64,000 bases of DNA from the NCBI GenBank assembly GCA_004282745.1, contig SHMT01000004.1, forward strand, positions 62,001 to 126,000. The letters run 5' to 3'. Shown piece by piece: positions 56,209 through 61,340 of the stretch. The first letter of the stretch is position 1, and every line of letters begins with the position of its first letter. Made by a program: the position numbers and the translations under genes. The notes under the pieces are model-generated. The model searched no databases. It was not told the DNA's origin and was given only the letters and a program-made list of their open reading frames with translations. This stretch comes from Candidatus Scalindua sp. SCAELEC01 (GTDB taxonomy: Bacteria > Planctomycetota > Brocadiia > Brocadiales > Scalinduaceae).

Positions 56209-57585
56209 TTATAAATAGAGATCTCTTTTACCTTGAAGAAGTAATTCCATATAGTCCGAAGTTGTTTTTCTGATATGTGGATCTTCAATTTTGTGAAGCT
56301 CGGAAGAGAGGAAATCCTTAATCTTTTGGGACGACTTTGGCATATGATCGAGAAGGTACTCCTCGAATGTGAGAAGAGCGTTTGGATGACAGAGTTTTTT
56401 TATCTCTCCTGGTTTCGCAAGGTCCATAAACTTCTCCCCAGTTCTACCCGAACGATAACAGGAGGTGCAGAAGCTCGGGAGAAACCCCATGGTAGCCAGA
56501 TTTTCTACCACTTCTGTAAGCGAACGGTTGTCAGATGTGTTAAATTGTCCAGGAGGATTACCACTGCCACTGTAACCTCCCGGGGCGGTCTTTGAACCGG
56601 CCGATATCTGTGATACACCAAGATGGAAGAGCTCATTTCGCAAGGATTCCTTCTCCCTTGTTGAAAGGATGATGCCCGTATAGGGAACGGCCAGTCTGAG
56701 AATTGCAACAATCTTTTTTAGTTCTCGGTCTGAAACTTGATAGGGGGGATGATTGGAAATTTCAGATCCGAAGGCGGGTTCAATTCGTGGGATTGAGATA
56801 GTATGCGGTCCTACTCCAAACCTTTCCTCAAGGTGCAGTGCGTGCAGGAGAATTGCAAGAACCTCAAATTTGTAATCATAGAGACCAAAGAGCGCCCCAA
56901 TACCCACATCGTCTATACCGGCTGTTTGAGCATCGTCGCATGCATGGAGCCGTTTCAAATAGTCAGACTTTGGCCCGCTGAGGTGCATTTTATTATACGT
57001 ACTCTTGTGGTATGTCTCCTGGAATAGCTGATAGGTACCAATACAAGCGCTCTTTAGCGTTTTGAAATCTTTCACTTCCATGGGTGCAACGTTCACATTT
57101 ACCCGTCTAATGGCGCCGTTTCCGACCTTAGTTTCATAGACGGTTTTGATAACTTCTTTTAAGTAATCAATATTGGCTGCTTGATCTTCTGCTGAGACAA
57201 GGAGTAACCGTTTGTGTCCCTGTGCGATGAGGGCCTTAGTTTCCTCCCGTACCTCATCTTTGCTCAGAATATGTTGGTTGCTATTTGAGGACTCTTGGCT
57301 AAAACCACAATAAAGACAGCGGTTTATACATCTATTTGACAAATAGAGTGGTGCAAACAGTACAAGACGGTTTCCGTAGATTGAACCTTTGATCTGTCTG
57401 GCAGTGGCAAAGATTCTGTTCAGTATGACCTCATCTTCACAATTGAGAAGGAGCGCCGCTTCCGCGGGATTTAGACCTTTTAATTCTAAGGACTTATGAA
57501 TGATAGTCTCAACACTTTGATTGGAAGGCGTTTGTGTTTCTTTCAAGATATCGAATATGTTGACTTCATTAATAAAGTTTTTCAT
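56209..57585 (-). CDS. hydG: HydG-type radical SAM tyrosine lyase ([FeFe] H-cluster maturase)
   Basis: This 458-residue protein has both iron-sulfur sites of HydG. The radical SAM motif CINRCLYC (C86, C90, C93) is present, and so is the C-terminal CTSCYRSGRTGEKFM with a third cysteine 22 residues later (CX2CX22C). Known HydG cleaves tyrosine and builds an iron complex carrying CO and CN. SAGSKTAPGGYSGSGN and FQETYHKSTYNKMHLSGP are conserved TIM-barrel parts. It follows the HypC-HydE fusion gene by 42 bases on the same strand, so the two should be co-transcribed. No HydF or hydrogenase is in the window. Confidence 0.9.
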   Translation of the reverse strand: MKNFINEVNIFDILKETQTPSNQSVETIIHKSLELKGLNPAEAALLLNCEDEVILNRIFATARQIKGSIYGNRLVLFAPLYLSNRCINRCLYCGFSQESSNSNQHILSKDEVREETKALIAQGHKRLLLVSAEDQAANIDYLKEVIKTVYETKVGNGAIRRVNVNVAPMEVKDFKTLKSACIGTYQLFQETYHKSTYNKMHLSGPKSDYLKRLHACDDAQTAGIDDVGIGALFGLYDYKFEVLAILLHALHLEERFGVGPHTISIPRIEPAFGSEISNHPPYQVSDRELKKIVAILRLAVPYTGIILSTREKESLRNELFHLGVSQISAGSKTAPGGYSGSGNPPGQFNTSDNRSLTEVVENLATMGFLPSFCTSCYRSGRTGEKFMDLAKPGEIKKLCHPNALLTFEEYLLDHMPKSSQKIKDFLSSELHKIEDPHIRKTTSDYMELLLQGKRDLYL

Positions 57586-57627: not shown

Positions 57628-58923
57628 CTATAAACCCAAATCAGTAGGAGCCCTTCCAATGGATCTCAGTAATAGTTGTGCTTCTGTTACCTGGTCTTCT
57701 AGGGAGATGTCGCCTCTTGCTCTGGACGGGTAAATATCGTAGAGAGCTGCAAAGTTTGTAGGTGTCAAGTTTAACATTACTGAATTTGCCCCACACAAAA
57801 GGGCCTGTCGTTTTGCTTTTGGGTATAAGGACTCTAGGGCCGTTGTCACCAGAATTTTTCCATAGGGGTCGATGAGTCGTAAAACAGAAAGGGCCTTGAG
57901 TATAGACCCTACATCCGGGGCTTTATACCCTGAAAGTGGCGTACCAGGATGCGGTATAAATGGACCAAAAGAGTACATATCAGCACCCAGCTCTTTTGCA
58001 AGCAGAAAATCGTCAATAATGGTTTCAACATTTTGTTGAGGAAGGCCTATCAGGCTGCCAGTAGCAATAAGGTAGCCAATATTCTTAAGGAGCTTGAGAT
58101 ACCTCATCCTCTCTTTTAAAGATGAATGGGGATGCAACTTTGCATAGAGAGCATCATCTGAAGTTTCAAATCTGAATAGGACAGCCCTTGCACCGGCTTC
58201 AAATGCCCGTAGATAAAATGCATCTTCTCTTTCTCCAACGCTGAGAAAAAGAAAAACCGGATAATGTTCCATTATCATTTTTATTAAATTCAAGATCTCT
58301 TTTGAGCTATAAGAGGGATCTTCACCCGATTGAAGTACGATTCCCTTAAATCCAAAACGTTCGACGGCATTTCCAACAATATCGCGAATCTGTTTGGGGG
58401 TGAGGCGATACCGGGTAAGGTTAATGTTTGATCTGTTTATGCCGCAGTATGCGCACTGGCACATGCAGTTATTAGAAAACTCAACAATTCCATGGACGCA
58501 ACAGGCATTACCCAAAAACTTTTGGCGTATGAAATTGGCTGATTTGTGTAGTACCTCCAATTCATCAAGATCTTCACTTAAGAGTAACCGCACTGCCTCT
58601 TCCCGAGAAATTGAGCCACCGTACGTCGCCTTAGAAATTATCTTGAGAAACCCTTTACTAATAGTTGTCTTGTCATGATGTAGTTTGGAAAGCCGAGTGT
58701 CTGTCTCTTTCAGCTCAAAGAATAGCTCTTTCCAGCTATCCAGGATCTCCTCGGCAAGTTTTTTCCCTATTTTCTGCACAACAAATCCTCCCTGTGCATA
58801 GACGTAATCACCTACTTGGAGGGCGTAAAAATCGTTTCGTGCTGTCCTCTCTTCTCCAAAATAATCTATGGTAATTAAATTATCTGATATACTTTTTACA
58901 TTTCCGGGAATAGCGTAGCACAT
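57628..58923 (-). CDS. HypC-HydE fusion: chaperone domain plus radical SAM maturase
   Basis: This protein has 431 residues. Residues 1-70 read as HypC/HupF: MCYAIPGNVKSI with the essential cysteine at position 2, then QVGDYVYAQGGFVVQKIGKK and a helix. The usual VHxGFA histidine is replaced by glutamine. After a linker (70-105), residues 110-431 are HydE-like: EFSNNCMCQCAYCG (C153, C157, C160), LQSGEDPSY, GSLIGLPQQNVETIIDD and FGPFIPHPGTPLSG. HypC carries the Fe(CN)2CO unit for [NiFe] hydrogenases; HydE processes the HydG product for [FeFe] hydrogenases. Joining them in one chain is unusual. The frame is continuous with no stop or gap between domains. Confidence 0.85.
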   Translation of the reverse strand: MCYAIPGNVKSISDNLITIDYFGEERTARNDFYALQVGDYVYAQGGFVVQKIGKKLAEEILDSWKELFFELKETDTRLSKLHHDKTTISKGFLKIISKATYGGSISREEAVRLLLSEDLDELEVLHKSANFIRQKFLGNACCVHGIVEFSNNCMCQCAYCGINRSNINLTRYRLTPKQIRDIVGNAVERFGFKGIVLQSGEDPSYSSKEILNLIKMIMEHYPVFLFLSVGEREDAFYLRAFEAGARAVLFRFETSDDALYAKLHPHSSLKERMRYLKLLKNIGYLIATGSLIGLPQQNVETIIDDFLLAKELGADMYSFGPFIPHPGTPLSGYKAPDVGSILKALSVLRLIDPYGKILVTTALESLYPKAKRQALLCGANSVMLNLTPTNFAALYDIYPSRARGDISLEDQVTEAQLLLRSIGRAPTDLGL

Positions 58924-60206: not shown

Positions 60207-61340
60207 ATGATGCATTACACTTATCAAATTATTAGTTGCTTTTTCCTCGGGTATCCGATTAATATGTTAGCTATTATGAAAACAGAAACTGTATCTGAAA
60301 AAGAGGCACATTCAAATTTGCAATCAAAATCGAGGAACAGTGTCGGCCCCAAGAAGACTTTCAGGGACTCACTCTTTAAGGTCTCTTCCAACACAATTGG
60401 GAGAGGGACGACAAAATTCCTTTTTAAGCTGTACGATCTTGGAAGGTTTGATATCTTTGGAAAACCGCAAGGTGCCATTAGTTCGTTTGATATAACCAAC
60501 AGGTGCAACCTCCGTTGCAAGCACTGCTATTTCTATGCTCACGATTACGAATCTGAAAAAGAGCTCACGGATGATGAGTGGATTAATAAGTTGGAGGAGC
60601 TGAAGGAGACCGATTTTCCTTTTTATCAATGCTCGTGGATAGGGGGGGAACCGCTCTTGCGCAAAGAGCTGATAGAGCGATGCATGAAGTATTTTAAATC
60701 AAATCTGGTTGCCACAAATGGCACTATTCCGCTTCCCGATTGGCCCGATGTTAATTTTTATATTGCAGTCGACGGACCAGAGGAGATGCATGATGAGATA
60801 CGGGGAAAAGGCTGTTATGCCAAGATCAGGAAAAATGCAAACCGGCCTGATTTAAAGATAATTGTCTCCATGGTCGTCAATAAGATCAACTACACGGGGA
60901 TTGAACGATTTCTTGAAGATTGGGTAAATACTCCTGTAAAAGGGTGCCTATTCCAGATGCATACACCGGTGAAGGGGCTAGAGTATAATGACGAACTGTG
61001 GCCGGGGTGGGAATTACGGGACCAAATTGTCGATAAATTAATAGCACTAAAGGAAGAGAAATATGGTGATTTCATTGCCGTGCCAAGGTATGTTCTTGAG
61101 ATGATGAAGTCAGATACGTGTAAAGAGGTAACGACAAATTGCCTCTTTCGGCAAATATCTTTTTGTCTCGATCCGCAAGGCAATAGGAAGCGTCCTTGCA
61201 TGATGGGACCTTTGGCTGACTGTGAACGTTGCGGTTGTGTTTTGCCATTCCATCTTAAGGCATTGGAGGATAAAAAATTAATGTTCCGGGAAATGCTTAT
61301 GAATCTGAAACGTAAGGTTGGCAAAAAAGTTTTTAATTAG
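60207..61340 (+). CDS. Radical SAM protein with C-terminal cysteine cluster
   Basis: This protein has up to 377 residues. SSFDITNRCNLRCKHCYFYA (near residue 97) contains the CX3CX2C radical SAM motif, and SWIGGEPLLRKELI is the GGEP SAM-contact motif. The C-terminal FCLDPQGNRKRPCMMGP and CERCGC cysteines suggest an auxiliary SPASM-like cluster. The reaction is unknown. The N-terminal 60 residues are poorly conserved in appearance, and the start could be at 60207, 60264 or 60276. The stop TAG is completed by the first base of MITE copy H. It is flanked on both sides by composite MITEs in inverted orientation. Confidence 0.75.
   Translation: MMHYTYQIISCFFLGYPINMLAIMKTETVSEKEAHSNLQSKSRNSVGPKKTFRDSLFKVSSNTIGRGTTKFLFKLYDLGRFDIFGKPQGAISSFDITNRCNLRCKHCYFYAHDYESEKELTDDEWINKLEELKETDFPFYQCSWIGGEPLLRKELIERCMKYFKSNLVATNGTIPLPDWPDVNFYIAVDGPEEMHDEIRGKGCYAKIRKNANRPDLKIIVSMVVNKINYTGIERFLEDWVNTPVKGCLFQMHTPVKGLEYNDELWPGWELRDQIVDKLIALKEEKYGDFIAVPRYVLEMMKSDTCKEVTTNCLFRQISFCLDPQGNRKRPCMMGPLADCERCGCVLPFHLKALEDKKLMFREMLMNLKRKVGKKVFN

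Follow-up and report, generated by a model that had tools for sequence, protein, structure and literature searches.

A HypC-HydE fusion protein that probably replaces, together with HydG, HypCDEF in [NiFe] hydrogenase maturation

In the HypCDEF pathway of [NiFe] hydrogenase maturation, the Fe(CN)2CO unit is held by Cys2 of HypC and Cys41 of HypD, and HypC delivers it to the large subunit (PMC11565642). A 2025 review regards six Hyp proteins as necessary for the [NiFe] cofactor and gives the source of the CO ligand under anoxic conditions as unresolved; HydE, radical SAM enzymes and FeFe maturation receive no mention in it (PMC12134894). In the HydE/HydG/HydF pathway, HydG draws on two tyrosines to make Fe(II)(cys)(CN)(CO)2. 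HydE receives this product, then adenosylates and reduces it en route to the diiron product (PMC12752695). In the open-licence papers searched, we found no account of a HypC-HydE fusion or of a part played by HydG in the maturation of [NiFe] enzymes.

A HypC domain joined to a HydE domain, encoded next to HydG

The window, which is the whole stretch of 64,000 nucleotides analysed here from Candidatus Scalindua sp. SCAELEC01, carries on its minus strand a single open reading frame of 431 amino acids, with its ATG at 58923, its stop at 57628 and no frameshift or internal stop, in which a HypC domain is joined to a HydE radical SAM domain. The first-pass annotation had proposed such a fusion at 57628-58923, and the proposal has held: the coordinates are correct, the strand is minus, profiles match both domains within one uninterrupted frame, and all motifs that it had pointed out (MCYAIPG, VGDYVYAQGGF, C153/C157/C160, LQSGEDP and FIPHPGTPL) are found in the reading frame. 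The features are:

57628..58923, minus strand: candidate HypC-HydE fusion maturase, single ORF, 431 aa (AlphaFold2 pLDDT 93.3, pTM 0.92)
58732..58923, minus strand: HypC domain, residues 1-64 (PF01455, E=3.4e-12)
58627..58731, minus strand: linker, residues 65-99, largely helical (AlphaFold2 model and comparison with 392-aa fusions)
57718..58626, minus strand: HydE-type radical SAM domain, residues 100-402 (TIGR03956, 250.5 bits; 1.4 A to 3iiz)
58492..58503, minus strand: Cys-Cys-x-His fingerprint (CCVH), residues 141-144 (alignment with TmHydE VHIR54)
58444..58467, minus strand: radical SAM motif CX3CX2C, C153/C157/C160 (sequence, TmHydE alignment)
57631..57717, minus strand: C-terminal tail, residues 403-431, last residues GRAPTDLGL (alignment of fusions)
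56209..57585, minus strand: HydG, 458 aa (TIGR03955, 513.9 bits; PDB 4wcx, E=3e-148)
56389..56469, minus strand: HydG auxiliary-cluster motif CX2CX22C, C373, C376 and C399 (sequence, comparison with 4wcx)

The N-terminal domain begins with Met-Cys and matches PF01455 (HupF_HypC) over its full length (profile positions 1-65 of 65) with 46.8 bits against a cut-off of 28.5, which places it in the HypC family, as had been expected; the stricter subfamily model TIGR00074 gives 38.1 bits, under its cut-off of 48. The expected HydE assignment of residues 100-402 stands in that HydE is the best-matching family, with PylB as runner-up at 138 bits, but the score (250.5 bits, or 251.2 in the genome search) falls slightly short of the TIGR03956 cut-off of 254.6. 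The closest solved structures are those of HydE from Thermotoga maritima (E=1e-66) and of HypC from Thermococcus kodakarensis (E=4e-8). Modelling of the fold agrees with these assignments: the AlphaFold2 model is confident over the whole chain, and its barrel superimposes on HydE 3iiz at 1.4 A. The linker is shorter in the 392-aa fusions, and the C-terminal tail is conserved within the main clade of fusions.

The fusion retains the radical SAM CX3CX2C motif and the substrate site of HydE. In the alignment, Q107, R159, M224, T268, T269, M291, Y303 and Y306 of TmHydE, which we take to be the substrate contacts in HydE structures, are Q198, R251, M316, T360, T361, M383, Y395 and Y398 of the fusion. 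The strand before the cluster reads CC[VI]HGI in the fusions, FCIHGI in a second Brocadiales clade and VHIRAI in TmHydE, and C142 and H144 are near-universal among fusions. Five fusion genomes carry a second HydE that could be read; it has no HypC, adjoins HydG or HydF, and has the canonical Arg at the position of His144. In a tree with six canonical HydE proteins, a small and long-branched outgroup, the fusions form one clade with support 100/100.

On the HypC side, every one of the 95 fusions whose start is intact has Cys2. Where ordinary HypC has a histidine (His45 in TkHypC, motif GDWVIVH), the fusion has Gln44; across 97 fusions this position holds Gln in 91 and Ala in 5. In TkHypC, His45 sits in a cavity beside HypD Cys38 (PMC11565642); loss of HypD as a partner would lead one to expect its replacement. 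Ordinary HypC has HypD as partner and a histidine facing it, and the fused domain departs from it in both respects.

The HydG gene lies 42 bp downstream of the fusion gene on the same strand; in several relatives (e.g., L086, L087) there is an overlap of 4 bp between them. The HydG protein scores far above the TIGR03955 cut-off of 312 and carries both cluster motifs, CX3CX2C and CX2CX22C, the latter being the site where HydG builds the Fe(CO)2(CN) synthon. Among 61 fusion-linked HydG proteins, 11 (at loci L129, L135, L136, L137, L142, L150-L152, L155, L156 and L166) depart from CTACYR in the auxiliary-cluster motif and read CTAGYRC: a cluster cysteine is gone and another stands three residues further on. 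The window also encodes, at 60207-61340 on the plus strand and divergently from the fusion gene, a radical SAM protein with no close NCBIfam family (the best match, NirJ1, has 55 bits where the cut-off is 650).

Partners and absentees in fusion genomes

The source genome (4.59 Mb, 104 contigs, 98.6% complete) encodes on a different contig from the fusion (G000:C80) a group-3 [NiFe] hydrogenase, with genes for diaphorase-type subunits, small subunit, large subunit and a HycI-type protease. Its large subunit matches PF00374 and has both CxxC pairs of [NiFe] enzymes, in the motifs RICGIC and DPCISC; the closest solved relative of the hydrogenase is sulfhydrogenase I from Pyrococcus furiosus. Profile searches of the same genome gave no HydA, no second HypC and no HypD, and neither HypF nor HydF above cut-off, so that of hydA, hydF and hypD, to which the first-pass annotation had drawn attention, none was found.

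The same pattern is seen in the order Brocadiales. Profile searches of 59 related genomes of this order find the fusion and HydG in the identical 17 genomes and HypD in 22 others, the overlap between fusion and HypD being zero (Fisher p=6e-5 for the 59 genomes, uncorrected for phylogeny). True [NiFe] large subunits are found among fusion genomes and HypD genomes alike: 41 genomes bear a hydrogenase, 15 of them with the fusion, 19 with HypD, none with both and 7 with neither; the large subunit is missing from two of the 17 fusion genomes, which are drafts. In all 17, the searches found neither HydA nor HydF. Of the 17 genomes, 13 reach a completeness of 90% or more and show little contamination, and one is a closed sequence; draft gaps as the reason for the missing HypD can therefore be ruled out. 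The closed genome, that of Kuenenia stuttgartiensis MBR1 (G026), has fusion, HydG and hydrogenase, and profile searches of it gave no HypD, HypF, HydF or HydA; a type 3b (sulf)hydrogenase has been reported by its authors (PMC5854607).

Neither is the two-domain architecture confined to one genome or one order. A scan of 84,980 species genomes yielded at least 269 relatives, of which the best 80 are fusions, from Omnitrophota, Elusimicrobia, Saganbacteria/WOR-1/Margulisiibacteriota, Spirochaetes, Atribacteria, Lentisphaerota, Woesearchaeota, Micrarchaeota, Nanoarchaeota and others, DPANN archaea thus being included; in the viral contigs scanned no relative was found. Because the fusion recurs uninterrupted on at least 80 independent contigs and in about 95 proteins, an assembly join of two separate genes is ruled out.

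Partners were searched genome-wide in 50 fusion genomes of many phyla and the 17 of Brocadiales, 67 in total. HypD was found in none of the 50 and in none of the 67; although many of these genomes are drafts, its absence from all of them is not explicable by gaps. HydG is present in 48 of the 50, two showing none. HypF above cut-off was likewise found in none of the 67; HypF-like matches of 125-128 bits in three genomes are far under the cut-off of 466 and are limited to profile positions 377-738, in ORFs some 530 aa long; we take them as carbamoyltransferase-like proteins and not as HypF. HydF, the first of the two genes that go with canonical HydE, scores above cut-off in 13 of the 67 genomes, and the second, HydA, has a match in 14. 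One or the other is present in 15 and both are missing from 52, if a 301-bit HydF match slightly under cut-off is treated as present.

The gene neighbourhood was read at 80 fusion loci, many of which end early at contig ends. At 40 of the 80 there is a [NiFe] large subunit, of group 3, group 2 or a short group-4-like type, in which the four cysteines (RICG[ITV]C and DPCxxC) are complete; for the other half no hydrogenase was found within the stretch read. Weak PF00374 matches of 20-46 bits near position 1-77 were left out whenever hydrogenases were counted; those in proteins of about 400 aa presumably represent complex I NuoD. When neighbours are clustered, HydG occurs at 50 loci, a large subunit at 42, a protease at 34, a small subunit at 23, two diaphorase subunits at 27 and 26, and HypA at 20 plus 4, and they almost always share the strand of the fusion. 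Profiles of HypD, HypE and HypF had no match in the 80 loci, to which the HypE search was confined. The clearest operon, L092 (G038), comprises the fusion, a toxin-antitoxin-like gene pair, HydG, HypA, HypB, small genes, and the small and large subunit; the arrangement of L091 is similar, and L153 and L164 are further examples of direct operons of fusion and hydrogenase.

Several details of these loci deserve mention in their own right. The toxin-antitoxin-like pair of L092 (6169-6791) stands between the fusion and HydG genes. The hydrogenases at L091:9165-11602 and L092:10548-13030 are group-2-like, with a large subunit ending in DPCLVCTVH without C-terminal extension, and adjoin genes for a PAS/histidine kinase and a response regulator; they look like hydrogen sensors for which the fusion system would be the maturase. 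Immediately upstream of the fusion gene at L153 (9745-9984), and likewise at about 20 comparable loci, lies a gene for a HypA of some 80 aa. This short protein covers PF01155 positions 1-67 alone and stops before the zinc-finger part; a HypA without zinc site may be another oddity of the fusion system. A Rex-like redox regulator, judged by sequence, follows the fusion at 14 of the 80 loci (L129, near 11400, and 13 others), which hints that the maturase operon may be under control that depends on NADH. Finally, a Falkowbacteria bin and a WOR-1 bin (L139 and L141) share identical proteins, both for the HydE part of the fusion and for the large subunit, probably by misplacement of a contig in one of the two metagenome bins.

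Related hydrogenases are found with both maturase sets. In the large-subunit tree, lineages of fusion type and of hyp type alternate with at least three changes, from which it follows that the maturase set was exchanged around hydrogenases of one family. For example, the fusion-type hydrogenase of G036 is nested in a clade with eight hyp-type ones, and a related hydrogenase (L114, G023) adjoins ordinary hypF-hypC-hypD-hypE. In G036, HydG and this hydrogenase, whose clade is hyp-matured in relatives, lie on one contig (L094, G036:C77) and the fusion with HypA and HypB on another (L093, G036:C66), possibly the mark of a recent maturase swap. Metal ligands and pocket residues are identical between 38 fusion-type and 12 hyp-type large subunits, and the residues of the CN/CO pocket (Arg352, Pro375-Thr376 and neighbours) are also the same in P. 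furiosus sulfhydrogenase I.

Proposed role and its alternatives

These findings make it very likely that HydG and HypC-HydE replace HypC, HypD, HypE and HypF in the maturation of [NiFe] hydrogenases. At the level of sequence, the proposal has the support of the domain make-up, the intact catalytic residues, the co-occurrence with HydG, the linkage to [NiFe] hydrogenases and the lack of HypD and HypF; every chemical step, including that the product is Fe(CN)2CO, we infer. HydG would split tyrosine into CO and cyanide and place both on iron, so that the CO and CN of the unit made by the fusion probably derive from tyrosine. The iron synthon would pass to the HydE barrel, which would assume HypD's role as construction site, HydG supplying both ligands; radical SAM chemistry and the Cys-Cys-x-His set would there yield a mononuclear unit, not the diiron one destined for HydA. 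The unit would then be taken up by Cys2 in the fused HypC, which would dock on the apo large subunit, as ordinary HypC does; nickel would come from HypA/HypB, and the protease would trim the tail.

The first-pass annotation had suggested that the fused HypC domain might either hold the product of HydE or pass an Fe-CO-CN unit on to some target that is not HydA. The second is now strongly favoured, given the 52 genomes without HydA and HydF and the fact that, where HypD and HypF are missing, the fusion accompanies [NiFe] hydrogenase operons; the client is most likely the [NiFe] hydrogenase. That the fusion is instead a HydE variant for [FeFe] hydrogenases, with HypC merely docking or stabilising, could be argued from the retained HydE fold and substrate-site residues and from the 15 genomes with HydA or HydF. 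However, all 17 Brocadiales are among the genomes that have neither, the HydE next to HydG or HydF in five genomes is a separate, HypC-less protein with the canonical Arg, and the fusion adjoins [NiFe] operons; we consider this role largely refuted, with hardly any chance left to it, and reject it. Very improbable, too, is that the unit serves some other enzyme, unknown or [Fe]-hydrogenase-like, and that the [NiFe] enzymes are inactive or matured by divergent Hyp proteins that escaped detection. The hydrogenase is indeed unlinked to the fusion in the source genome, and none lies in the stretch read at half of the fusion loci. Against this, HypD is highly conserved (470-505 bits in relatives) and yet found in none of the 67 fusion genomes, all catalytic cysteines are retained, and the four direct operons named above exist.

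The ligand set needs separate thought because HydG's product has two CO and one CN, so that Fe(CN)2CO requires one ligand exchange. Either this exchange would occur on the fusion, or the [NiFe] enzymes would carry the HydG product as Fe(CO)2(CN). For the latter speak the mono-cyanide, di-carbonyl iron that HydG gives (PMC12752695) and the fact that cyanide-adding HypE and HypF were not found near fusions. The CN/CO pocket, however, is that of the hyp-matured relatives and of P. furiosus sulfhydrogenase I, and its conservation favours the exchange step; we regard a different ligand set as unlikely.

Maturation by HydG and HypC-HydE would then be a second independent route to the [NiFe] active site, and we think it likely that such a route exists, in which CO and CN come from tyrosine via HydG and one fused radical SAM/chaperone protein stands in for HypCDEF in many bacterial phyla and DPANN archaea. 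If true, a natural two-gene replacement with a known source of CO and cyanide would offer an alternative cofactor route, and two hydrogenase maturation systems thought to be unrelated would be joined. Hydrogenases would be explained in seemingly maturase-less organisms such as anammox bacteria, Omnitrophota and Woesearchaeota, and the scoring of genomes for hydrogen metabolism would change.

Comparison with known maturation systems

With the HypCDEF pathway (HypC/HybG/HupF, PF01455) the fusion system shares the chaperone domain with N-terminal Met-Cys2, the client enzymes, and the HypA, HypB and protease alongside. It differs in that fusion genomes lack HypD and HypF and fusion loci lack HypE, that its HypC is attached to a radical SAM enzyme, and that the histidine near HypD has become Gln or Ala. 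Whereas HypCDEF uses carbamoyl phosphate and an unknown source of CO, tyrosine would presumably give both CO and CN via HydG.

With the HydE/HydG/HydF pathway (TIGR03956, TIGR03955, TIGR03918) it has in common a HydG with radical SAM and auxiliary-cluster motifs, the HydE fold (at 1.4 A) and the eight conserved site residues of TmHydE. Unlike canonical HydE, the fusion has HypC attached and CCxH in place of the Arg54 region, belongs to a separate clade, usually occurs without HydF and HydA, and would have a [NiFe] client. HmdB/HcgA-type enzymes of [Fe]-hydrogenase cofactor synthesis resemble it as BioB-like radical SAM enzymes in a hydrogenase cofactor pathway, but with the HmdB model the fusion scores no higher than 61 bits, the cut-off being 321. 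Judged from the sequences compared here, the fusion system is probably a second, hitherto undescribed way to build the iron-carbonyl-cyanide centre of [NiFe] hydrogenases.
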